DNA of 39,668 bases from a virus: the IMG/VR virus record IMGVR_UViG_3300010413_000081, positions 1 to 39,668 of that record; one strand, given 5' to 3'. Under the pieces are notes generated by a model that made no database searches, had not been told where the DNA came from, and was given only the letters and a program-made list of their open reading frames with translations. Positions within the stretch are counted from its first letter, which is position 1; every line of letters starts with the position of its first letter. A program made the translations under genes and the position numbers. Below, one piece after another: positions 18,546 through 34,796 of the stretch.

Positions 18546-18615
18546 AGCCTAAATCTCCCAGCTTTGGGGGCATCATAGCCCCAAATTTCGGCGAACGCTA
18601 CACATTAGCGGATAA
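18546..18615. promoter_or_regulatory. Intergenic control segment with hairpin and operator-like 17-mer
   Basis: This 70-base gap splits the late unit between the MuF and protease genes. It holds an inverted repeat (TTTGGGG at 18563 with CCCCAAA at 18579-18585) without a T run. It also holds TACACATTAGCGGATAA (18599-18615, plus strand), identical over 17 bases to the minus-strand motif in the helicase promoter. No good -35 is placed with it here. It may be an operator, an antisense promoter or an RNA-processing site. Confidence 0.5.
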
Positions 18616-19524
18616 CTAGCGGGCTTCGCGTTCGATTATCTTTCCGGAACTGTCAACGAGAACGGCCCGGGTAGTGCAGTGGCAATTTATCCGGTTGGAA
18701 CCCTCGGCCCACCAAGCGGCTTGATCCTCGGGGGTGTAGGCTTTCCCATGCCGGGCCGCGTGTTCGTCTCGAGTCGTCGGCAATAGCGCGGAAATATGGA
18801 TAACCCCGCCGATTAGCCCCGTTTGTTGCTCAACTCGGGACGCGGCGCGTAACCGAGCGTCGTTATACGCGGCGTTTATGCTGGTATCGGCGATAGTCTT
18901 CGCCCGGGACCGTGAAACGTTGAAACGCTCGCTAATATCCTTCGCTATTTCCGTCGGACTCTTGCCGGCGCGCATCCCGCGGCGGATGCGGTCGATAACC
19001 TGGCCGCTAGTCTGCTCCCCGAGCCCCTTGATCGTCGCGTAGTTCCCCGCGTAGGCCCGGGAAAGGTCGTCTATATACGCCTTCGACGTGAGTATCGCCC
19101 CGGGCGGGATATCTTGCGGTGGCAGTCCGGACGGTCCGACCACGCCGAGCGCCCGGGCCATCGCGACGAGTTGGTTAAATTCCGTCTCCGACTCTAGGGT
19201 CCCGCGTCGTGTCGGGATTTCAATATCCCGGCGCCAAAACCAATCCGGAGGCGGCGTATCTTCCGGAGTCGTCCCCAGCTCGTCGGCGATAGCGCTACGG
19301 ATCTGGGCGAATAGGGCATTTTCGAGAATGGGCGCCAGGTCATAGATAAACGTAACGTTTTTCTCGTTCTGGATGGGGGTAATAGTTTTCGTTTGGCGGG
19401 GGACGGCCATAAACAACCGCTTAACCTCGCGCTCCGCCGCGGATAACCGATTCTGTAGACGCTTGGTCGACTTGGCTCGGTCGACGCGTAAACCGGTTGG
19501 GTCTTGTGGCGTTTTGCGCGCCAC
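18616..19524 (-). CDS. MuF-like / SPP1 gp7 head morphogenesis protein
   Basis: A 302-residue protein after the portal. The helical N-terminal half is followed by DRIRRGMRAGKSPTEIAKDI, then SRSRAKTIADTSINAAYNDA and HAARHGKAYTPEDQA. The C-terminus NRINCHCTTRAVLVD is the Cys-His end diagnostic of the MuF domain (phage_Mu_F). Such minor head proteins bind the portal and may affect early DNA entry. The start is GTG overlapping the portal stop, with GAGAGG 7 bases upstream. No toxin domain is fused. Confidence 0.88.
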   Translation of the reverse strand: MARKTPQDPTGLRVDRAKSTKRLQNRLSAAEREVKRLFMAVPRQTKTITPIQNEKNVTFIYDLAPILENALFAQIRSAIADELGTTPEDTPPPDWFWRRDIEIPTRRGTLESETEFNQLVAMARALGVVGPSGLPPQDIPPGAILTSKAYIDDLSRAYAGNYATIKGLGEQTSGQVIDRIRRGMRAGKSPTEIAKDISERFNVSRSRAKTIADTSINAAYNDARLRAASRVEQQTGLIGGVIHISALLPTTRDEHAARHGKAYTPEDQAAWWAEGSNRINCHCTTRAVLVDSSGKIIEREAR

Positions 19525-23151: not shown

Positions 23152-23212
23152 TATCCCCGAACCGCCCCGAATATACCCCGCCATTCGGTGTATTCGTAAC
23201 TACTTGTTTTCT

Positions 23213-23267
23213 TTACTATTACTATTATTTACCCCTAATACCCCTAATAAAATAATATTAGTAGTAA
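23213..23267. repeat. Imperfect inverted repeat with tandem 9-mers in the loop
   Basis: Left arm TTACTATTACTATTATT (23213-23229) pairs with right arm AATAATATTAGTAGTAA (23251-23267) at 15 of 17 positions. The loop contains ACCCCTAAT twice (23231-23239 and 23240-23248). It lies about 100 bases upstream of terS and 195 bases upstream of the rightward gene. Confidence 0.7.
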
Positions 23268-23372
23268 TATATAGAGGGGGGCATATAGTAGATATGTATG
23301 GGGAAACGCACGGGAGAGATCCGCGGGGAGTAGAAGACTTCGCGGGGTGGACCGGGTTAACACGATAAACTC

Positions 23373-24926: not shown

Positions 24927-25205
24927 TTACTTACCCTCCGCTATGTCTAGGATGATTTGCACGAGCCCCCTAATATGCGACTCCGCAGCTACCGGGGCGG
25001 TTTTAACGCTCCCGCTCTCTACGAATTGCTTAGCGTACCGCGCGGCCTCGATGAACGCCGGAGAGACGACGAACGGCTCGATATTGTCGACGCTGAACGC
25101 CCGTAACGCCCCGTTTTGTAATTTCACGGTTCCGGTGTCCGCGTTAGCGTCTACGAGCTGCCCTCGGATCACTACCGGCTTGCATATATCGTTATGGGTA
25201 ATCAC
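24927..25205 (-). CDS. Hypothetical protein, GTG start
   Basis: A 92-residue protein. GTG at 25205 overlaps the pentapeptide stop (GTGA). The N-terminal half is beta-rich ([20 protein letters not shown], then [20 protein letters not shown]), like a small barrel. The rest is helical ([30 protein letters not shown]). No known family is recognised. It is coupled with the pentapeptide gene and may act with it. Confidence 0.6.
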
Positions 25206-25786
25206 AGCATTTCCTCCGCGTCCGCGAATACAAATACCGCTTGTTTATACTTCGCCCACCAGGCGACAGCCCCGACGTCCATAGCGCGTATAGCTATCTC
25301 GTCGAATTCGGCCCATTCGTGCAGTCTGTGCCCTTGGCATCCTATCTGCAGCCAATCGTCGCAAACCACCACGTGGTAATGATCGAATTGCGCCGACCTA
25401 ATTATTTTTCCGTCCCCAATCGCCCCGTGCAGATCCGCCCCGTCCAGATTCGCCCCGCGCAGATCCGCCCAGCGCAGATCCGCCCAGCGCAGATTCGCCC
25501 CGTGCAGATTCGCCCCGTGCAGATCCGCCCCGTGCAGATTCGCCCCGTGCAGATTCGCCCCGTGCAGATTCGCCCCGCGCAGATCCGCCAAGCGCAGATC
25601 CGCCCAGCGCAGATTCGCCCCGTGCAGATTCGCCCCGTGCAGATTCGCCTCGCGCAGATTCGCCTCGCGCAGATCCGCCTCGCGCAGATCCGCCCCGCGC
25701 AGATCCGCCCCGCGCAGATCCGCCCCGTGCAGATTATCCGCCACGACTGAGTGAATAACCGCGCCGCTAAGGCTAATTATATCCAT
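25202..25786 (-). CDS. Pentapeptide-repeat protein with C-terminal domain
   Basis: A 194-residue protein. Residues 18-127 are 22 uninterrupted pentapeptides of the type A(D/N)LxG, e.g. [18 protein letters not shown], predicted to fold as a right-handed quadrilateral beta-helix. Residues 128-194 ([20 protein letters not shown], then [20 protein letters not shown]) form a separate domain. Known relatives (MfpA, Qnr) mimic DNA and bind gyrase, but that role is not shown here. GGAG lies 8 bases before the ATG. It is the first gene of a leftward unit with its own promoter. Confidence 0.85.
25406..25735 (-). repeat. 22 tandem 15-bp repeats coding pentapeptides
   Basis: The 330-base stretch is built from 22 consecutive 15-base units such as CGCAGATCCGCCC or TGCAGATTCGCCC on the plus strand. 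Many units are nearly identical at the DNA level, so copy number can change by slippage or recombination without breaking the frame. Confidence 0.85.
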
Positions 25787-25820
25787 TTCGTTTTCTCCGC
25801 TTCGTTTAAGGTAGGACTTA

Positions 25821-25848
25821 TTATTATCCGATAATGTAAACGAGTCAA
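25821..25848 (-). promoter_or_regulatory. Promoter of the pentapeptide unit with operator-like motif
   Basis: On the minus strand TTGACT (25843-25848), a 16-base spacer and TAATAA (25821-25826). The spacer and -10 contain ACATTATCGGATAA (25824-25837), the motif shared with two other leftward promoters; ATTATCGGATAAT is a perfect palindrome around its central G. Leader length is about 28 bases with a good RBS. Confidence 0.7.
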
Positions 25849-25858
25849 GCCCCCGACG

Positions 25859-25886
25859 AAAAAAAAATCCGCCCTAGTGGCGGATT
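25859..25886 (-). terminator. Intrinsic terminator of the leftward early unit
   Basis: Read leftward: AATCCGCC, a 5-base loop, GGCGGATT (a perfect 8-base-pair stem, 25866-25873 with 25879-25886), then nine T. The TAG of the 90-residue gene at 25874 lies inside the hairpin. Confidence 0.85.
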
Positions 25887-26146
25887 CTCATTTCGAACAG
25901 CCGGCAGTTGTTCCCCGCCTCGATTATTACCCCTAGGTAAAGCACTCCGCGGCCAACCCCCTCCCTGGCTTTGGTGTCCTCAACGTCGCCGGGGTATCGG
26001 TCTGAGTAAAAGTAGCCCTCGAATAGCCGCTCGGTTACCTCCCACGGGTTGATATCGCCAACCGCGATACGGCGGCATCCTACGACGTCTTGGCGGCTCT
26101 TATCGCCAACCTGGCGGGCGGACTTACAGTTTGCGCAAGTACTCAT
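25874..26146 (-). CDS. Small Cys-containing hypothetical protein
   Basis: A 90-residue protein, last in the leftward early unit. It begins MSTCANCKSARQVGDKSRQD, with a CxxC and one further Cys (GCRRI), and contains Cys again near the end (NNCRLFEMRIRH), so one zinc site is possible. The middle (PWEVTERLFEGYFYSDRYPG) is aromatic. No family is recognised. Its stop lies in the terminator stem. It starts one base after the primase stop. Confidence 0.6.
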   Translation of the reverse strand: MSTCANCKSARQVGDKSRQDVVGCRRIAVGDINPWEVTERLFEGYFYSDRYPGDVEDTKAREGVGRGVLYLGVIIEAGNNCRLFEMRIRH

Positions 26147-28756
26147 TTAAACAGCTCCAAAGGTTTGCGCCGCTTCGCTCACCCCTTGGGTAGTTTGTGC
26201 GGCGTCGTAGGCTTTCACGATTTCGGAGGGACGGGTTAGATTCGCGAGAATATGCCCCGCCTTGATGAATAGCCGGGGTTTGCCTGCGTCCGATAACGTC
26301 GGGTTATTTACCCGTCCGTCCTTTAGCCCCGGATGCCAGTCATAGCCGAGCGATTGCAGTAGCTCGCGGCGCTTGTTGGGCGGGATGGCCCGGGCGGCTC
26401 GGTGCGATTGCAGTAGGCGGTCGACGGCGAACGATGAGACCCACCCCCCGGCGAATCCCGGGCGCCCTTCCTCCACGGCTTCCATAATTTCCTGTTCGAT
26501 TGACCCGAGCGAGGCCGTTACCGCTTCCCGGGTGCTACTTGTTTCCGGTGCGCGATGGCACGAGCCGGCCGGGTTGATCTCGGCGGGGATTTCATAGGTA
26601 GCCAGGAACTCGGCGACGATGGCGTAACCGTCCGCCTTCAGCCAGTTATACAACCTGGGGAAATAATCGCCGGTCATACCGTCGCGGGTTACGTCGTCGT
26701 AACTCTGCTGGGCGGTATAGAAGACAGCGAACCGGCGGTCGTTGCGGGTCTTGCGGATCGCGTCCTTGTGGTTACTGTTAAGCATGAAGTTAGCGCGGTT
26801 GTCGCCCATTATCTGCGACTGCTGCATCGCGCGCTTCGATAGCCGGTCGTTAGTTATCATCGGCTTGAGGGTTTCGATAATCTCGCGCTTATGGTCCGGA
26901 ACATAAACGTCTTCGATCCCGATAAATAACTTACCGAATAACCACTCGTTAAACTTCTCCGAGATTTCCGCCGCCGGCGGTAAGTGAACATAATCCTCGC
27001 CAATGGCTGCGGCGACGCAGCGCGTAAATAGTGTTTTACCGTTCCCCTCAGTCCCTTGCAACAATGGCGCCCATTGGAACTTTACGCCGGGATACTGAAC
27101 GCAAGCCGCCATATACGCCAATAGGATCGATTGGTCCCGCTCATGCGGTAGGACTTTTCGCAGATGGACGAGGAACGGCTCCGGGTCTCCCTGGAGGCGT
27201 CGAACCCGAACAGGGACGTAAGTGTTAACCATTTTTCGCCCTTCGCGCTCCAGTACCCCGCCCGGGGTTGCGTCAGGTCTAAAACAGGTCGTTTCTACCT
27301 TCGGAAACCTTACGAGCTGCGACTCGGTGAATGCCTCCCACGCTTTGCGGGTTGTCTTCTCGCGGCTGTCGTCGAGCTGGAAGACATAGCCCCCATAGGT
27401 TGCGTTAAATTGCCCTTCCTTCAGGATCGCGCCCGTCGGGGTGAATATGCGGTGTTGGTCCTGGATATAAACGCAACCCTTAAAATGCTCGATCTGTAGG
27501 TCCGCGGTAAGGAATTGGTAGCCGCTAATCGTCTCCGGCTCCGGCTTGGTACTAAACGGCGCGACCACGTGGTCGACCGGCTTTAGCATCGCCGCGAGTT
27601 GTTCCGGCGTCTGGTCCTTGTTGTCGATCCAGAATTTCGCCGTAGAGCCGTTAATCGCTAGCGTTTGCGCTACTTCGGTATTCGCTGAGCATTCGGCTAA
27701 CTTGGCGGCCCTTATGGACTCGGCAAAGGCGCGTTGTTCATCACTCGAGGCCCGCAGCTTGCCCGCCCCTAACGATTCGGCTACGCTGTTATCTGCGGCT
27801 TTAATAATGCGGCTATAGACCTCGGTCTGTAACGAAACGGCTCGGAGGATAGTTCGAGGCAAATAATCTTCTCGTTCCCACTTATCGCGGACCAGCGCCG
27901 ACCGCATCATTAGGCGCTGAATCCGTTCGCAGTCCTTACCCGTCCAGAAGGCCAAATGCTGCGCGAGAGCCATGTCGGTTTGCGATTCGTTATATGGGCG
28001 GCTCTTACCCCCCATTTCCGGATAGGTGCGCGCCAGGGCGTTAACGTCCCCGTGCCACAGCTCCGCGAACCCCGCCTTTTCCGAGAACGCCGCGCCCGCG
28101 CTCTTCTTGGCCTGCAGCGCCCGCTCGATTAACTCGTCGTCGTCTGCGGGCCCGTTCCATTCCGCGACGGGTCCGTCGGTCCATTCCATGCCGGGGGTAC
28201 CCGCGGCGGACGGCGGAAAGTAGGTATTAACGATAAACGGCAAGATGCCCGAGCAATCCGTAGCCGCCGAGCCTATCGCGTTCGTGCCGGTTAGCGCGAC
28301 GAACCGCTCCTCGTGGTAGAGCTCTAGCCCGAACTCGTCTCTACGGCAAGCGTGGGGCGGCGGCGTACCAGTCCCGATAATGTGGAGCCCCTTACCCGAT
28401 TGCGAGACCTCTATAGCGGCGCCGGCGAACTGCTGGCAGAGATACGTCGCGAGCTGGGACCACGTGTTCCCCGGCTGCAGCGCGTTATCTATGTCGAGAA
28501 AGAAAAAAGGATCTTCCGCACGAAACAGGAAACCGACGCCGTAGTCCCTACCGAGCGCGGCGGCTATCTGCGTCGCAGTATCCCCGTCGACCCACTTAGT
28601 CGGGTCTTGTTGCCAGTTATCACCCTTCGGGAATGGTTGTAGCGTATGCGGGTTAATTGGTAATTTCTTGGCCTTTACCCCGTCAGGAATGATTCGATAG
28701 AGGATAAATTGCCTATAGGCGGCCAAAGGGGCCAGCGCTTCCGGGATCTGGTGCAT
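26147..28756 (-). CDS. NrS-1-like primase-polymerase / superfamily 3-type helicase (DUF5906)
   Basis: An 869-residue replication protein. The N-terminal primase-polymerase part has FFFLDIDNAL (D88, D90) and VSQSGKGLHIIG (about 117-128), the DxD and sGxGxH motifs of archaeo-eukaryotic-type primases. About residues 340-470 form a linker. The helicase begins near residue 540: GTEGNGKT (Walker A, about 568-575), LFIGIEDVYVPDHKREIIET (Walker B region) and ANFMLNSNHKDAIR (sensor-like). The same arrangement occurs in phage NrS-1 polymerase, which can start and extend DNA chains. GAAGGGG lies before the ATG. Confidence 0.85.
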   Translation of the reverse strand: MHQIPEALAPLAAYRQFILYRIIPDGVKAKKLPINPHTLQPFPKGDNWQQDPTKWVDGDTATQIAAALGRDYGVGFLFRAEDPFFFLDIDNALQPGNTWSQLATYLCQQFAGAAIEVSQSGKGLHIIGTGTPPPHACRRDEFGLELYHEERFVALTGTNAIGSAATDCSGILPFIVNTYFPPSAAGTPGMEWTDGPVAEWNGPADDDELIERALQAKKSAGAAFSEKAGFAELWHGDVNALARTYPEMGGKSRPYNESQTDMALAQHLAFWTGKDCERIQRLMMRSALVRDKWEREDYLPRTILRAVSLQTEVYSRIIKAADNSVAESLGAGKLRASSDEQRAFAESIRAAKLAECSANTEVAQTLAINGSTAKFWIDNKDQTPEQLAAMLKPVDHVVAPFSTKPEPETISGYQFLTADLQIEHFKGCVYIQDQHRIFTPTGAILKEGQFNATYGGYVFQLDDSREKTTRKAWEAFTESQLVRFPKVETTCFRPDATPGGVLEREGRKMVNTYVPVRVRRLQGDPEPFLVHLRKVLPHERDQSILLAYMAACVQYPGVKFQWAPLLQGTEGNGKTLFTRCVAAAIGEDYVHLPPAAEISEKFNEWLFGKLFIGIEDVYVPDHKREIIETLKPMITNDRLSKRAMQQSQIMGDNRANFMLNSNHKDAIRKTRNDRRFAVFYTAQQSYDDVTRDGMTGDYFPRLYNWLKADGYAIVAEFLATYEIPAEINPAGSCHRAPETSSTREAVTASLGSIEQEIMEAVEEGRPGFAGGWVSSFAVDRLLQSHRAARAIPPNKRRELLQSLGYDWHPGLKDGRVNNPTLSDAGKPRLFIKAGHILANLTRPSEIVKAYDAAQTTQGVSEAAQTFGAV

Positions 28757-28766
28757 ATCGTCCCCT

Positions 28767-29189
28767 TCAGGATTGGGCGATCACGATTTTGTTATTCTCT
28801 TTTTTCGCCAGCCGCATAACGGCGCGCCGTAGCTGCGGCATGGTCGAAAAATACTTGGTAACCGTCCCTGTAGAAACGCCCGCCGCGTTAGCCACGTCGG
28901 CGCGGGTGAGCGTCTTTATATGCCCCGACTCGGCCAGGCGTAACGCCGTCGCGACTATGTGCGCGCTGCGTAGCTCCGGGTCCATGCGGCGCCGGGTCAC
29001 CTCTCCCGCCCCGGCGTGTCCCTCGCCCGCCAGGCTACGGATAAACGCCTTAAACGTCTGCCCGGTAACGTGGGCAAATGAGCCCGCAGGAATACCCGCG
29101 CGTTGGCATAACCCGTTTCGAGTGATGTTCTCGAGACCGTTTTCGGCGGCCATCTTGATCGCTGTCTTTCTAATGTGTTCCGGTGTCAT
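28767..29189 (-). CDS. TetR-like helix-turn-helix protein (two HTH-like repeats)
   Basis: A 140-residue protein with two TetR-N-like units. The first (TAIKMAAENGLENITRNGLC then QRAGIPAGSF) lies at about residues 9-33. The second (VATALRLAESGHIKTLTRAD then VANAAGVSTGTVTKYFS) lies at about 80-115. There is no ligand-binding domain. Duplicated HTH proteins of this size occur in phage early regions and may be transcription regulators. It could bind the operator motif shared by the leftward promoters, but that is not shown. It ends 10 bases before the primase. Confidence 0.7.
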   Translation of the reverse strand: MTPEHIRKTAIKMAAENGLENITRNGLCQRAGIPAGSFAHVTGQTFKAFIRSLAGEGHAGAGEVTRRRMDPELRSAHIVATALRLAESGHIKTLTRADVANAAGVSTGTVTKYFSTMPQLRRAVMRLAKKENNKIVIAQS

Positions 29190-29317
29190 ATATGGCCTAT
29201 TAATTGATACCCTATAGGTGCCCTAGTCTCTGCGCGCATAGCCGCGTAACAGTGGTCCCCACTTATCGCGCACAATAGCCGAGGCCCATCGTAGAAATAA
29301 ATTTTCCAAATGCTCAT
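29186..29317 (-). CDS. 43-residue hypothetical protein with candidate own promoter
   Basis: The ATG at 29317 overlaps the methyltransferase stop (ATGA), and the end overlaps the HTH gene start as ATGA. The product starts MSIWKIYFYDGPRLLCAISG and ends RAPIGYQLIGHI. No family is recognised; the beta-rich composition suggests a small barrel. A sigma-70-like promoter lies so close upstream that transcription would begin at the A of this ATG, and no Shine-Dalgarno is seen. Confidence 0.55.
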   Translation of the reverse strand: MSIWKIYFYDGPRLLCAISGDHCYAAMRAETRAPIGYQLIGHI

Positions 29318-30804
29318 TTATTTACCTTATCCGATAATGTGCGGACGGTCAAGGCGTCTAGTATTCTGGCGTTTGCGATATCGACCATCCGGCCCCCTTG
29401 GTCATCTGGGTCCCACTGAAAACCGAGGAAATTAAACCCCTCTAGCACCGCCCCGCGCCCCGTACTGCCTGAGCCGGTGAATGGGTCTAGGATGAGGCCG
29501 CCCGGCGGAGTAACTAGACGGCATAGGTAGCGCATTAACTCGGTAGGTTTAACGGTGGGGTGCGGGTTGCGATTGCCAACGGTGCGGCCCGTCCCAGCGC
29601 GTGGGTTGTTAAGCCCCGCTGACCCCTCGTCACGACCCCCGGTAGCATCCCCGGCCGATAGAATATCGAACGCCTCGAGCCCGGCGTTACGGTCCGCCTT
29701 GGACGCTTTCGCGCAATAGAAGTATCGCGCCCATTCTTCGCCGTCGAGCGCCCCGTCGTGTAGCACGTTAGCGGGCCAGCGACCTGAGTCGTCCGGGTTG
29801 TAAGCGACTCGTTCCCGGTGACCGCCTGTTACGCCGTTTCCTGCGAACGAGGGTTCGTCCCCGTTAACGCTGTATTCGGTGCGGTCGCCGTCGACCCGCG
29901 GTATCCTACAACCGCCGATATTGATCGCTCCCGTCCCGTACTGCAGCACATTGTCCGCCACGGTTCCGACAAGCGGCTTGCGGGCGATAATGACCGGCTC
30001 GTATGCGGGCTTAAGCGCGGTTCCCCATCCGTCCCACTGTTTCGCGGCGTCGGTGTGGGGGGCGGTGTAGTAATATTCCTCTTCCGCAAAGTCGCCATAA
30101 ACCCCAGCGCTTTTACCCTTCGGCGTTCCTGCCGCCACCACATTCCGCCGTTTCATATTCTCCAACTCTACCGTTCGCCATTGCATCAGCTCCATGATCT
30201 CGGGCGGGGGTGTCGGTACTAGATGGGCGAAGCTCGCATACATATCGAGCGTGGCTATAGCTGGTTGTTCCTTATCGGTCAAATAATGGTTGCCCATGTT
30301 TGATTTAGTGGCTTCGTTGATCTGTCGTGCTGTGATCCCAGTAGATCGCAGCCATGCGGTGAACTTTAACGCCCGTTCTCGACTTGCGCCTATGCCGTGC
30401 GTCTTCTCTACTGCCTTCGACACGTCCAGCGACTTAGGGAAGCCAGACCCGTATAGCCACATGGCCGTATCTCGGATCTCGAATCCCGCTAACCGTAGCG
30501 CCATCGACATCAGGTCTTGAGTCCGCGACCCGGCGAAAACAAGCGCATGGCCGCCAGGCTTCAGCACTCTGTACACCTCGCGCCATGTGGCCGGACCGGG
30601 GACGAAACTGTCCCACGTTTTGCCCATGAAACCGCGGCCCGTTTGTTTGTAATCGTCGCCGTTTAACCAATGGCGCAATACCTCGGCGGTGTCCGGCTCT
30701 TTACTCAGCCCATAAGGCGGGTCAGTAACTACCGCGTCGATAACGTTATCCTCGCGCAAGTGTTCAGCAATACCCGCGCGACATTCTTTGTTAATTACGA
30801 ACAT
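29314..30804 (-). CDS. DNA methyltransferase, DPPY type (adenine-N6 or cytosine-N4)
   Basis: A 496-residue methyltransferase. DAVVTDPPYGLS (DPPY at about residues 28-31) comes before the SAM-binding block LDPFTGSGSTGRGAVLEGFN (about 437-456), the class beta order. RVLKPGGHALVFAGSR follows DPPY. The long middle (about 110-410) carries the target-recognition region, with PAYEPVIIARKPLVGTVADN typical of this group. I take the ATG at 30804 with GGGG 9 bases upstream rather than the TTG before it. It overlaps the cytosine methyltransferase by 14 bases. Confidence 0.9.
   Translation of the reverse strand: MFVINKECRAGIAEHLREDNVIDAVVTDPPYGLSKEPDTAEVLRHWLNGDDYKQTGRGFMGKTWDSFVPGPATWREVYRVLKPGGHALVFAGSRTQDLMSMALRLAGFEIRDTAMWLYGSGFPKSLDVSKAVEKTHGIGASRERALKFTAWLRSTGITARQINEATKSNMGNHYLTDKEQPAIATLDMYASFAHLVPTPPPEIMELMQWRTVELENMKRRNVVAAGTPKGKSAGVYGDFAEEEYYYTAPHTDAAKQWDGWGTALKPAYEPVIIARKPLVGTVADNVLQYGTGAINIGGCRIPRVDGDRTEYSVNGDEPSFAGNGVTGGHRERVAYNPDDSGRWPANVLHDGALDGEEWARYFYCAKASKADRNAGLEAFDILSAGDATGGRDEGSAGLNNPRAGTGRTVGNRNPHPTVKPTELMRYLCRLVTPPGGLILDPFTGSGSTGRGAVLEGFNFLGFQWDPDDQGGRMVDIANARILDALTVRTLSDKVNK
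29324..29352 (-). promoter_or_regulatory. Internal leftward promoter with operator-like motif
   Basis: TTGACC (29347-29352), a 17-base spacer and TAAGGT (29324-29329) on the minus strand. It includes ACATTATCGGATAA (29327-29340), identical over 14 bases to the pentapeptide promoter. It sits inside the 3' end of the methyltransferase gene and would make a second transcript for the HTH and primase genes. Confidence 0.55.
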
Positions 30805-31966
30805 CAAGATACGCCCCTATAAATTGCGCCGTGACTTCGGCATTAATTGCATTGCCGTAACCGCGCAATCGTCCCACTCGGGCGGGAGCCCCATTAGCCA
30901 GCGGGAATGTTCCGGGTTCAACTGGCCGCCACTTTCCATCCCTGCAGTAGAGCCAATCAGCATCTTGCCAGAGGCCATTAGTCGGGCCGGCTGGTCGTGG
31001 CTCAGGTAAAACGGTGCCCAGTCCTTCAATTCCCCCCGGTAACTCCCCATCGAGTTCGGATCTCGGTTCCCGTCTTTCTTCAACCGCATCATTCTCGGTT
31101 TGCCATTGTTCGTCCCGTCGAAAGTCAGAGGTGTCGGCCATCCCGCCAGAGTCGCAACGTGTGGAAGAGCTACAGACACTTTGCGACCGTCCGGCGTCTT
31201 CCCCGTCGCGCTCAGTCCCTCGAAGCTCTGCGAGCCTTGACTGTTTCCTACAGTCGGCGTCGGCCATCCCGCCAGGCCCACCGCACCCGGCAATCGGTCC
31301 ACCCCCTGCCCCGGCCCACCCTTCGGCCCGTCCTGCTGGCATGGCGTCGGCCATCCCGCCAAATTCGCCTGTCTTGGTAGCTGATCGAACCGCTCCTTCC
31401 CTGTGTCCTTGCGTGGTGTGATATCCGCCCCGCTGTCCTTCCAGTCCCTCGCCGATGGGGTGACCCACGAAGAACAGTCGTTGCCGGATGTGCGGCGCAC
31501 CGACGCCCGCAGCGCAGAGATCAGTCGCCCCGAAGGCGTAGCCCGCTCCTTCCATGTCAGTTTGTACAAGGTCGAGCCAAGCGAGGCCGTCTTTGCTCGC
31601 AACCTGCTCGCCAAATATTGGGACAGCTCTTGGCTTTGCCGTAGTGATGAGGTGGAACCAGGCTGGCCATAGATGCCGCTCGTCAGTAAACCCGCCGCCT
31701 TTGCCTGCGCTGCTGAAAGGTTGGCAGGGGCAAGAGCCTGTCCAAACTGGTCTATCGTCAGCCCACCCAGCTCGGCGCAAGGCATAGGACCACACGCCGA
31801 TCCCGGCGAAAAAATGGCACTGTGTAAAACCGGCCAAGTCCGAAGGTAACACGTTTTCAATTGATCGTTCATCGACTACCCCAGGGGCGATTAACCCCGC
31901 TTTGATTAACTCACGCAGCCAGGCGGCGGCGTTTGGATCGAACTCGTTATAATACGCCCAGCCCAT
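30791..31966 (-). CDS. DNA cytosine-C5 methyltransferase
   Basis: A 391-residue enzyme transferring methyl from SAM to C5 of cytosine. Motif I is [18 protein letters not shown] (about 51-68), motif [13 protein letters not shown] with catalytic Cys 81, the ENV-equivalent FGEQV (118-122), motif [12 protein letters not shown] (about 161-168) and motif [16 protein letters not shown] near the end. Residues about 185-340 are a low-complexity target region with repeated GGMADA or GGMADT. I use ATG 31966 (GGGG 5 bases upstream), not a TTG at 31984. Most of the gene also encodes another frame. Confidence 0.9.
30817..31872 (-). CDS. Overlapping +1-frame ORF inside the cytosine methyltransferase gene
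   Basis: A 351-codon frame shifted +1 relative to the methyltransferase, with no stop. It starts at an ATG preceded by CCTGGGGTAG, nearly the same as the leader of the methyltransferase start. It reads like a protein: [20 protein letters not shown], three LAGWPTP motifs (DNA repeat GTCGGCCATCCCGCCA on the plus strand), and [20 protein letters not shown] near the end. Similar wording occurs in database proteins named phage DNA methylase. It may be a second protein or a domain reached by frameshifting. Translation is not proven. Confidence 0.55.
31133..31361 (-). repeat. Three dispersed copies of a 16-17-base motif in the methyltransferase target region
   Basis: GTCGGCCATCCCGCCA (plus-strand reading) occurs at 31133-31148, 31259-31274 and 31346-31361, with a following G in the first two. 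It codes GGMADA/T in the methyltransferase frame and LAGWPT in the overlapping frame. It is a shared-coding repeat rather than a mobile element. Confidence 0.75.
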
Positions 31967-31968
31967 AG

Positions 31969-32154
31969 CTACCCCAGGTACCAAGCAAGATACGAGAACA
32001 AGAGCCCACCCGGATATACCGCATAGCTCGGCGTTTCCCGGATTGATTCACCCATCGCCGCGCGGACCTCTTGAAGTGTCGAGAACCCAGAGTCCGCCGA
32101 ATGCGCTAGACATTCCTTAGTATCCGGGTCGAATGGTGTTAAATAGATAGTCAT
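31969..32154 (-). CDS. Hypothetical protein between nuclease cluster and methyltransferase
   Basis: A 61-residue protein starting MTIYLTPFDPDTKECLAHSA and ending VYPGGLLFSYLAWYLG. AAGGG lies 7 bases before the ATG. Its stop is three bases before the methyltransferase ATG, so the two are probably coupled. No domain is recognised. The C-terminal 15 residues are hydrophobic but too short and broken for a certain membrane span. Confidence 0.6.
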   Translation of the reverse strand: MTIYLTPFDPDTKECLAHSADSGFSTLQEVRAAMGESIRETPSYAVYPGGLLFSYLAWYLG

Positions 32155-32157
32155 GGT

Positions 32158-32508
32158 TTAGCCCTTTGTAAGTCCATAGGGGGCCCATACTGGAAGCCCC
32201 GCCCGTTTGCAACGTTTAACCATGTCGTCCGTTCCGCGCCCGCCAGGAAAAGCGACGCAATAGTCCGGGGCCTGCTCGTCTAGCATCTTTTGATTTCTCA
32301 AATGCCCGGCGACCTTGCCGAGAGACCAATCCGCCGGGACGCGCACCTCGTAGATCCCGCGGCATCTTGCCCACGTTCCTGCTAACGTATCCGCTCCACA
32401 CGCTCCACCGTGGATTATTACCGTCGGTTTTACCGGTAGCGCATCAAGCGCCGCGAATAGCCGCGACTTATCAGAATACCGCCGCCCACCGCAAACTAAT
32501 ACCCTCAC
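32158..32508 (-). CDS. SLOG-fold protein (DUF2493 family)
   Basis: A 116-residue protein with VLVCGGRRYSDKSRLFAALD (residues 3-22), IHGGACGADTLAGTWA (about 32-47) and FPGGRGTDDMVKRC (about 86-99). These are the nucleotide-binding loops of the SLOG superfamily, DUF2493 branch (YpsA/TIR-SLOG-related Rossmann-like fold). Possible roles are binding or processing a nucleotide or ADP-ribose derivative. Single-domain phage versions have no proven function. It overlaps the VRR-NUC gene by four bases. Confidence 0.85.
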   Translation of the reverse strand: MRVLVCGGRRYSDKSRLFAALDALPVKPTVIIHGGACGADTLAGTWARCRGIYEVRVPADWSLGKVAGHLRNQKMLDEQAPDYCVAFPGGRGTDDMVKRCKRAGLPVWAPYGLTKG

Positions 32509-32975
32509 AAGGTCCCCTCACTCGATGCGAACTCGGCATCGCCGCCCATGCTTAACACCAGCTCCATAAATCGAAGTTGCGCCACTTCTCGCGGCGTTCC
32601 TCGGTAGACCCAGCCCGCCGCCTTAATCTCACGTGCGACGAACTGCCCGAGAACGTGGCCGACGTGTTCCTCGCGAATCAATACCGGACGAATGCCGATA
32701 AGGTCCGACGATTTTATTTGCTTGTTCATTGCCTCCGACTCGTTGCATAGCCCCCAGCGTAGAAACGATCCATTGTTGAGCGTCCCGGCCCCTACATTGT
32801 TACGCCACAGTCGAACGCCCTTACGCGACGCCTCGAGACGGACCCGCGTTTGTACCGCTATTTCGCCCTCGCCAGGTGCGGACGTCGGCCCATCGAAAAC
32901 GCCTAACTCGTTTCGTAGGTCGATTAATGCCTCTTTAGGTATGCCCCATCGAGCGGCCCATAATGTTAATTGCAT
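32505..32975 (-). CDS. VRR-NUC nuclease
   Basis: A 156-residue protein from ATG 32975 (GGGG 8 bases upstream); a longer frame to 33041 belongs to the preceding small gene. LWRNNVGAG, then KSSDLIGIRPVL (catalytic-type Asp), FVAREIKAAGW (ExK), and QLRFMELVLSMGG (Q...GG) give the VRR-NUC version of the PD-(D/E)XK fold. In phages this is a structure-specific or Holliday-junction-type nuclease acting in replication or packaging. It lies between the helicase and SLOG genes. Confidence 0.85.
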   Translation of the reverse strand: MQLTLWAARWGIPKEALIDLRNELGVFDGPTSAPGEGEIAVQTRVRLEASRKGVRLWRNNVGAGTLNNGSFLRWGLCNESEAMNKQIKSSDLIGIRPVLIREEHVGHVLGQFVAREIKAAGWVYRGTPREVAQLRFMELVLSMGGDAEFASSEGTL

Positions 32976-33112
32976 AAAGTAAACCCCATTTTTTCCCATT
33001 CGTCGACGGAGTAAATACGCTCCTCGTCGACCACGTAGCAAACGCCCGGAACGATAGCCCGCAGCTCTACGACGGTTCCGTCGTTCGCGATATACGAAGC
33101 ACCTATTTTCAT
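32966..33112 (-). CDS. 48-residue hypothetical protein
   Basis: The ATG at 33112 overlaps the helicase stop (ATGA), and the stop lies 10 bases within the nuclease gene. The product begins MKIGASYIANDGTVVELRAI and continues with VPGVCYVVDEERIYSVDEWE, an alternating pattern suggesting a small SH3-like or OB-like barrel. No family is recognised. It was found by reading the helicase-nuclease gap. Confidence 0.6.
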   Translation of the reverse strand: MKIGASYIANDGTVVELRAIVPGVCYVVDEERIYSVDEWEKMGFTLCN

Positions 33113-34761
33113 TTCGAAATCTCCGCTAGTTTCAGGGTTACACGTTCAGCGAGTGCGATAGCCTCGCCCCTGTTCAATGTTTGCGCCGTCATAACGTCGA
33201 CGCCGAACATATAATAAAAACGTCTATAGCTTTCCGAATCGCTCCGGCCCTCTTGGCGCTGATAGGCGGCCCACCACGCGATGGCGGCGCGTAATGCTTC
33301 CTGGGCCTCTTGCCGTTGAACGTGGCGTTTTAAATGGGCCTTCTGTCCGATAGGGGGGACGCGCTTAGCTACCAACTCGGCCGCATATTGCGCGGGTGCC
33401 ATATCGACCCTAGCGATCTCCCCGCGCATCCTGGCCAAGACGTCGGCGTCTAGTTCGATAAGGTCCCCGTCGACAAACTCAGGGCCCCCGCGTTCGATAA
33501 TTGCGGGCACGTGCCCGCAAAATGGGCAAGCGTTATAAACGCGCTCATATACCGCCGTACATTTAGGGCATGAACGAACCGGGATGGCCTCGTCGTCTTT
33601 ATCCCTCGCGCGCTTCTCTCTTGCGTCCAAGGTCATTCGTCGCGAGGCATCCGGCAACCCGTGGCGGATAACATTACCCACGTGGTCGATAATAACCGCG
33701 ACGTCCTTACCGTCCAGGAGACGAAGCGCGCGGCCGAATTGTTGAACGTATAGCCCGAACGACTCCGTAGGACGCGCCATCGATACGACTTCGATAGCGG
33801 GAAGGTCAAAGCCCTCGCCGAATAAATCCACGTTAACGAGCTGCAGCAACTCACGACGACGGAAACGTCGGATTGTCTCTATGCGTTCGGCGTCTGGCGT
33901 TTCTGCACTCAGCGCCGCCGCGGGAATGCCCGCCGCGTTAAATGCCGCGGCTACGTCGTGAGCGGTAGCGACGTCCGGAACGAATGTAACGCCGAGTTTA
34001 CCGGGCGCGATTCTCAGATAATGCGCGACAATATCGCCAACGACTCGGGACTTGCGAATCGCGTCGACCATTGCCGCGTGTTTAAAATCTCCGGTCGTAT
34101 CGCTTACCGGCACGGCTTCGCGGTGGAAATCAGACGGCGGGGCGAATATGCGATAATCGGTTAGGTAACCGCCGTCGATCAATTCGCGCATAGATGGGCC
34201 GACGACCATAGTATCGAACAGCCCGTCCGCATGACGGCCTAGCCCTTTCCCGTCCGCTCTTTCCGGCGTAGCCGTAACGCCTAACCCGCGCGCCTTTTTA
34301 AATAACTTCGCGGCCTTGCCCCATTTGTTTCCAGCTAATACGTGGTGCGCCTCATCCTGGACCCATAGCGAGACATTATCCGACCATCGCGCATCGACTC
34401 GGCCCGGGCGGATGAGCGTATCGACCCCGGCCACGCCTACCCACGACTTAGGGTCGTAGTAGTTGCGCCCGACTTCCTCCATGTGGAGACGAACGGCGAG
34501 GCGAATTACATTAGTCGGCCCTATGATCCTATGCTTAACCTCATCACGAGCGAGCGCTAGCGATATTTGAGTAACTAGCTCCTGGCGGTGCGCAATAGCG
34601 CAAGCCGCCCCGTCGTGTTCCCGAATAACGTCGGAAAATATAACGGTCTTACCGCCGCCCGTAGGCAACACGCCTAAAACGTTTTCGCAACCGTTCGCCC
34701 ACTCGTTATAGATGCAGGTTTTTAGGTCTCGTTGGTAGGGTCTTAGATTTATGCTTGACAT
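33109..34761 (-). CDS. DEAH-box superfamily 2 DNA helicase
   Basis: A 550-residue helicase. Walker A TGGGKT (34-39), VQDEAHH (DEAH 136-139), TATPER (163-168) and QQFGRALR (340-347) are in the right order for a type III restriction enzyme/UvrB-like helicase. SCPKC...ACPFCGH (Cys 398, 401, 412, 415) is a zinc ribbon. A C-terminal region from about residue 430 is helical and basic. It probably unwinds DNA in replication or recombination. ATG 34761 has no Shine-Dalgarno and lies 7 bases from the -10 box, so the message may be leaderless. First gene of the leftward early unit. Confidence 0.9.
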   Translation of the reverse strand: MSSINLRPYQRDLKTCIYNEWANGCENVLGVLPTGGGKTVIFSDVIREHDGAACAIAHRQELVTQISLALARDEVKHRIIGPTNVIRLAVRLHMEEVGRNYYDPKSWVGVAGVDTLIRPGRVDARWSDNVSLWVQDEAHHVLAGNKWGKAAKLFKKARGLGVTATPERADGKGLGRHADGLFDTMVVGPSMRELIDGGYLTDYRIFAPPSDFHREAVPVSDTTGDFKHAAMVDAIRKSRVVGDIVAHYLRIAPGKLGVTFVPDVATAHDVAAAFNAAGIPAAALSAETPDAERIETIRRFRRRELLQLVNVDLFGEGFDLPAIEVVSMARPTESFGLYVQQFGRALRLLDGKDVAVIIDHVGNVIRHGLPDASRRMTLDAREKRARDKDDEAIPVRSCPKCTAVYERVYNACPFCGHVPAIIERGGPEFVDGDLIELDADVLARMRGEIARVDMAPAQYAAELVAKRVPPIGQKAHLKRHVQRQEAQEALRAAIAWWAAYQRQEGRSDSESYRRFYYMFGVDVMTAQTLNRGEAIALAERVTLKLAEISK

Positions 34762-34784
34762 GGGGTTATATTATCCGCTAATGT
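34755..34784 (+). promoter_or_regulatory. Rightward promoter facing the helicase promoter, candidate
   Basis: TTGACA (34755-34760), an 18-base spacer and TAATGT (34779-34784). It would drive the rightward replication genes. Its -10 falls within the spacer of the opposite promoter, so the two overlap and could exclude each other. Confidence 0.45.
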
Positions 34785-34796
34785 GTAAAGCGTCAA
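34768..34796 (-). promoter_or_regulatory. Helicase (leftward early) promoter with operator-like motif
   Basis: TTGACG (34791-34796), a 17-base spacer and TAATAT (34768-34773) on the minus strand. It contains TACACATTAGCGGATAA (34771-34787), matching the 17-mer at 18599. The start of transcription is expected at the A of ATG 34761. Confidence 0.7.

Follow-up and report, generated by a model that had tools for sequence, protein, structure and literature searches.

A repeated operator-like motif in promoters of a contractile-tail phage, and its possible reading by the phage's own TetR_N-type protein

Why should one 14-base word lie at the same place, from the middle of the spacer into the -10, in several promoters of a single phage? 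The question is raised by an IMG/VR virus record of 39,668 nt, which was scanned at full length and is termed the window here. It encodes a contractile-tail phage, with terminase, portal, sheath, baseplate, primase, helicase and two methyltransferases. A first-pass annotation had placed the motif ACATTAKCGGATAA in three leftward promoters, considered a chance match very unlikely, and suggested either one regulator, possibly a TetR-like protein, or an unusual extended promoter. All three copies were recovered as exact minus-strand matches, and a fourth was found on the plus strand (sites 1 to 4; Table 1).

These four exact matches compare with none in each of 300 dinucleotide shuffles, and the pattern TTGAC-N6..9-CATTANCGGATAA has three matches in the window against none in the 300 shuffles. 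Chance repetition of a promoter-like word would be in keeping with the further 13-mers that also occur three times in the window, and with the promoter-like sites of the region scanned, which at 8 show no excess over the shuffles (mean 9.4). Since other 13-mers are repeated thrice as well, the argument lies in the promoter position of the copies and not in repetition alone. In a scan of IMG/VR contigs, TTGAC-N{6,8}-ACATTANCGGATAA was matched once, against three copies with TTGAC in front in the window; none of the 11 window proteins compared had a counterpart in the contig concerned. With these counts and the matrix ranking given below, chance is disfavoured and is highly improbable as an explanation.

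Table 1. Positions of the motif-bearing sites and neighbouring features in the window
Feature	Position	Strand	Basis or remark
Site 4: exact ACATTAGCGGATAA, without TTGAC in front	18602-18615	+	
Pentapeptide-repeat protein gene behind site 1	25202-25786	-	Pfam Pentapeptide, 2.2e-40
Site 1: promoter TTGACT-17-AATAAT, with ACATTATCGGATAA at 25824-25837	25820-25848	-	consensus scan
Terminator-like hairpin directly upstream of site 1	25863-25889	-	
TetR_N-type regulator, 140 aa	28767-29189	-	Pfam TetR_N, 4.9e-10
43-aa ORF	29186-29317	-	no Pfam match
Site 2: TTGACC, gap, ACATTATCGGATAA at 29327-29340	29327-29352	-	candidate promoter, weak -10
Helicase gene, behind the leftward promoter of site 3	33109-34761	-	phrog_16, 6e-89
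Site 3, rightward: TTGACA-18-TAATGT	34755-34784	+	towards the 34810-37620 genes
Site 3, leftward: TTGACG-17-TAATAT, with ACATTAGCGGATAA at 34771-34784	34768-34796	-	towards the helicase

The copies fall into two spellings. Sites 1 and 2 are identical over 14 bp, whereas the exact identity of sites 3 and 4 extends to 17 bp, TACACATTAGCGGATAA; CATTANCGGATAA is common to all four, and the KCGG middle is the same in each except at K. The core had been described as palindromic. The 13-bp palindrome ATTATC-G-GATAAT is indeed whole at site 1, but the other copies read ATTATC-G-GATAAG, ATTAGC-G-GATAAT and ATTAGC-G-GATAAC and are imperfect. A spacing of 5 or 6 bases behind TTGAC, likewise claimed, holds when counted from the six-base -35 (5, 6 and 6 at sites 1, 2 and 3), while the gap from TTGAC to ACATTA is 6, 7 and 7 bases. 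In a sigma70 consensus scan (TTGACA, TATAAT, 16-18 bp), 10 of 12 positions agree at site 1 and 9 at site 3, and both are called as promoters; site 2, with its poor -10, is not. Site 1 lies 62 bp upstream of the pentapeptide-repeat gene, and behind site 2 follow the 43-aa ORF, the TetR-like gene and the primase gene. An ATG lies exactly 35 bp past the start of TTGAC at both site 2 (29317) and site 3 (34761), and the TetR-like gene of one relative, G001 (14526, minus strand), has the same spacing. Given this distance, the helicase and 43-aa ORF messages may be leaderless.

The annotation had taken absence of the motif from the promoters of relatives to speak against its proposal. Such absence was found for the exact word and not for the motif class. 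Within one mismatch the 14-mer was present in 1 of 30 relatives' records and missing from the other 29, and it was met in one unrelated IMG/VR contig, so that it was rejected as a family-wide operator; the word in G014 in the motif scan of the relatives was ACAATAGCGGATAA. Comparison of TTGAC sites instead revealed a long promoter common to the relatives, TTGAC-N6-GTCANTANNGNNTANNNT. At its core, TTGAC-N6-GTCA forms an inverted repeat that spans the -35. Across 22 relatives' records and the window, TTGAC-N6-GTCA was counted 93 times against 5 in the reversed sequence, and TTGAC-N8-CANTA 77 times against 5; copies of a coding stretch (IDEAVI...) that mimics the operator are retained in these counts, as they are in the counts of 29 sites and 312 matches and in the PD0307 scan below. 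Other spacings yielded only 3 to 12 matches (N9-GTCA, 12 against 1 reversed; N4-GTCA, 10 against 4). The palindrome also reaches past the -35: among the 87 distinct sites used for flank counts, 69 carry T at position -1, 77 a purine at position 0 and 70 an A at the mirror position. The relatives' operator can be written TR-TTGACG-N4-CGTCA-NTA. Four annotated isolates have 29 distinct TTGAC-N6-GTCA sites; 21 of these are followed, 45-90 bp on, by a CDS start in the matching orientation, where 1.8 would be expected, and 22 fall outside CDSs, where 3.1 would be.

The conserved IDEAVI... stretch belongs to a rightward operon and is spelled like the operator-promoter, for instance at G009:13476 (+) and at 32550 (-) in SppYZU01 (L144); this is either a codon coincidence or an internal promoter. 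Full palindromes, TTGAC-N6-GTCAA, provide a -35 on each strand and occur in MSW-3 (L147; 4287-4302 and 19858-19873) and several times in JD001 (L146), where several of them precede small blocks of unknown-function genes that run against the structural genes.

The window itself holds no TTGAC-N6-GTCA, i.e. its sites are without the GTCA arm, and the family operator is therefore present only in part. Sites 2 and 3 retain TTGAC and CATTA in register. A matrix built from 52 non-redundant promoters, with the window left out, ranked site 3 (34796, minus strand) first with 19.1 and site 2 (29352, minus strand) second with 17.9; the next best site of the window scored 10.1, and the reversed window at most 5.0. 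All training sites start with TTGAC and contain CANTA by selection, so that such sites are favoured in these scores, and the IDEAVI... copies had been removed, although at least two slipped through. The matrix missed site 1, whose gap is shorter by one base. As judged from sequence comparison, this phage has the exact 14-mer almost to itself and shares the promoter position of that word with the relatives.

The same data bear on the idea that a mobile piece of promoter was duplicated recently and gave rise to the copies, which would then have no regulator in common. Their exact identity over 14 bp (sites 1 and 2) and 17 bp (sites 3 and 4) would fit this, as would the place of site 4 in a spacer that is missing from the related gene block of the relative G017. 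The identity, however, ends at 14-17 bp, where the flanks become different, and sites 2 and 3 match the relatives' promoters at the same places and in register, which marks these two sites as old. Duplication is accordingly very unlikely to account for the motif.

Which protein might read such an element? The product of 28767-29189 matches Pfam TetR_N with 39.5 bits (cut-off 24) over residues 78-124, as do all 18 of its aligned homologues. The structure model (pLDDT 86.4, pTM 0.53) comprises two HTH units, at residues 3-54 and at 71-130, and ends in a single short helix. PDB matches were obtained for residues 67-140, with a TetR-family DNA-binding domain match over 73-140, the best being 3he0_B (Z 11.9, with 68 residues superposed at an rmsd of 1.4). 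With Foldseek on its own, nothing matched the model at an E value of 0.001 or below. As one domain fills the PDB match list, the first HTH unit is a prediction of the structure model. The protein ends 16 residues past the TetR_N match, and no ligand-binding or dimerisation domain follows the HTH. In a library of defence genes, the sole hit of the regulator was a weak one to mad1, spanning 21 residues. Homologues are found in phages of Klebsiella, Pectobacterium, Edwardsiella, Shewanella and others, while a short-peptide search of IMG/VR gave no close homologue.

The TetR-like gene is itself preceded by the shared type of promoter in all four annotated isolates. That of SppYZU01 has GGCA in place of GTCA and hence lies outside the count of 29 sites. 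Among 29 two-HTH loci besides the window, TTGAC-N8-CANTA stands before the TetR-like gene in 20, another TTGAC promoter in 7 and none in 2, in a tally made by eye that includes loci closely related to one another and covers a limited upstream stretch. Site 2 of the window fits the register of these promoters. A pairing of two-HTH proteins with the extra NTA after GTCA was also considered, with the IDEAVI... copies filtered. The element was present in 17 of 22 non-redundant two-HTH promoters, but also in 5 of 7 promoters of the single-HTH G018; owing to this mixed result the pairing is not claimed.

The occurrence of the operator follows that of the gene. In 57 records with a TetR-like gene, 312 TTGAC-N6-GTCA matches were counted against 22 in the control, full palindromes being counted twice, once per strand; in 12 records without the gene there were 6 against 7. 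At least three matches were present in 32 of the 57 positive records and in none of the 12 negative ones. The difference stays when seven Jedunavirus-like records are removed (total 175, control 19). The figure of 57 among 69 records, obtained by profile, is not a frequency, since many records were selected for a helicase or regulator relative. The link of the regulator to the operator is one of association and not proof, because the records include near relatives, 7 of the 12 negatives are other phage groups found via a methyltransferase or a distant helicase, and another, G007, may be a fragment. No match occurs in 13 of the 57 positive records; an operator that drifts would account for this, and so could a different function of the protein.

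These 13 records would also suit a motif that serves as the operator of a different phage or host protein, and the pairing of operator and protein rests on sequence for every candidate. Moreover, a second repeated palindrome, TAGATAAATWATTTATCTA, is found inside TTGAC promoters of the L055-L080 branch (L059:9904, L079:9887), beside TTGAC-N6-GTCA, so that a phage of the group may have more than one regulator. Against a different protein stands the fact that the family operator follows the TetR-like gene, which itself sits behind such promoters, and that roughly 40 ORFs of the window gave no other transcription-regulator match in PHROGs and Pfam. This explanation is considered quite unlikely. 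The second palindrome is probably the operator of another regulator; we take it to resemble Vibrio LuxR/HapR sites. The suggestion that this AT-rich palindrome replaces the GTCA operator in phages with an AEGLPSKYF helix was rejected, as both coexist there and the palindrome is found with other helices too.

Site 3 brings out a different alternative, namely that RNA polymerase alone, without any regulator, reads the motif as a strong, extended promoter sequence. Here a leftward and a rightward promoter overlap face to face in the stretch that separates the helicase from the oppositely directed operon. Within the motif, ACATTA complements the rightward -10 (TAATGT) and GGATAAT contains another -10; firing in both directions would thus explain the shape of the motif. 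Of 80 relatives (the best of 506), 50 have a TTGAC-N28..36-GTCAA frame in the 600 bp preceding the helicase, against 1 in the reversed control, and -10-like words stand on both strands of this frame in 30 of 37 distinct sequences. Symmetrical -10s with divergent transcription are, in addition, a described bacterial class (PMC12825309). The conserved family element, on the other hand, comprises a palindrome with flanks beyond the -35 and -10, and where the TetR-like gene is lacking its counts do not rise above background. The KCGG middle is not promoter consensus either, site 4 has no -35 and the -10 of site 2 is poor. A motif read by polymerase alone is therefore rated unlikely.

The explanation that we consider best, and on balance probable, is that the motif is this phage's own version of the operator, placed in sigma70 promoters and read by the TetR_N-type protein, which would repress its own and the early operons. 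One regulator, as first proposed, is favoured by the promoter before its own gene in relatives and by the background level of the core where the gene is lacking, while the unconserved 14-mer, the missing GTCA arm and the positive records without a match weigh on the other side. An extended promoter was also proposed: the relatives do share one, with an inverted repeat over the -35, though not with the exact word. The two readings look like two sides of one thing.

Mechanistically, host RNA polymerase would start from TTGAC and the following -10 early in infection. The regulator would be made from the operon behind site 2, accumulate, and bind over the -35, spacer and -10, blocking the polymerase. 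The operon of the regulator itself would thereby be limited, as would the pentapeptide gene and the two early replication operons. Repression is suggested by the overlap of operator and -35, though the protein may instead be an activator. In this phage the relatives' GTCA arm would have been lost and CATTANCGGATAA would be the conserved part, alongside a changed recognition helix. The C-terminal helix reads VSTGTVTKYF in the window and VSMGLVTRYF in most close relatives, which is no more than suggestive of a joint change of operator spelling and helix. L044 and L037 have a near helix, VSTGLVTKYF, yet keep GTCA; G001 has VSMGLVTRYF, yet no TTGAC-N6-GTCA.

More tentatively, and with a less than even chance of being right, tailed phages of several genera (Jedunavirus, Yokohamavirus, Peatvirus and further ones, one branch having two HTH units per chain) might share a self-limiting early regulon under a ligand-free TetR_N protein, in which operator and helix change together and each phage has a private code, that of the window being one which has switched. 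Should the explanation preferred above hold, the TetR-like gene of many phages would have a likely job as the phage's own switch, natural pairs of operator and recognition helix would become available for studying the drift of DNA specificity, and so would a compact face-to-face promoter module kept in many phages.

TetR-type operators, phage repressors with several operators and bidirectional promoters are known kinds. Lambda CI and the repressor of mycobacteriophage L5 are phage repressors with several operators. The present protein is likewise a phage-encoded DNA-binding protein with several putative operators on its own genome, but its HTH is of the TetR type and the helicase-primase phages are reported or presumed lytic; no lysogeny genes were found among the window ORFs scanned. 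PEAT2 is one phage so reported or presumed (PMC8472413). The operator of E. coli RutR reads TTGACCANNTGGTCAA. RutR binds a palindrome of about 16 bp upstream of its targets, including its own gene (PMC10891134). A TetR_N-type DNA-binding domain is shared with RutR-type repressors, and the relatives' TTGAC-N6-GTCAA is also 16 bp; the phage protein, however, is without a ligand-binding domain, has two HTH units per chain in one branch, and the left arm of its operator is the -35 itself. In E. coli bidirectional promoters, studied by the Grainger group, facing polymerase sites on the same DNA must compete; the class has a shared -10, with starts most often 18 bp apart and 10 and 23 also common (PMC12825309). 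The polymerase sites of site 3 similarly face each other over the same DNA, but its two -10s, as read from the sequence, are separate (34768-34773 and 34779-34784) and the predicted starts would be about 30 bp apart.

The TetR-like gene of Oceanospirillum phage vB_OsaM_PD0307 is a homologue of the regulator (8.5e-33), and no TTGAC-N6-GTCA was found in that genome. Its authors read the gene as an auxiliary metabolic or antibiotic-resistance gene (PMC10132091); this reading is not favoured here. No description of the regulon or operator was found in the searchable, mainly non-subscription literature.

Site 4, which could conceivably have a role, lies between the 16908-18545 gene and the head-morphogenesis gene (18616-19524). 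Read leftward, its -10 side is identical to that of the site 3 promoter which points rightward. A promoter at this junction in relatives was considered and set aside, G017 having the same block without the spacer. For the 16908-18545 gene, a short-peptide search of IMG/VR gave no relatives. In SppYZU01, a putative protease gene is preceded at 53 bp by a promoter, which may or may not lie at a junction corresponding to that of site 4. Beside site 4, a hairpin-like repeat, TTTGGGG...CCCCAAA, occurs in the 18546-18615 spacer that has no counterpart in G017. Elsewhere in the window, an AT-rich stretch with short TATTA/TAGTA repeats (23200-23330, minus strand) is found upstream of the terminase small-subunit gene.
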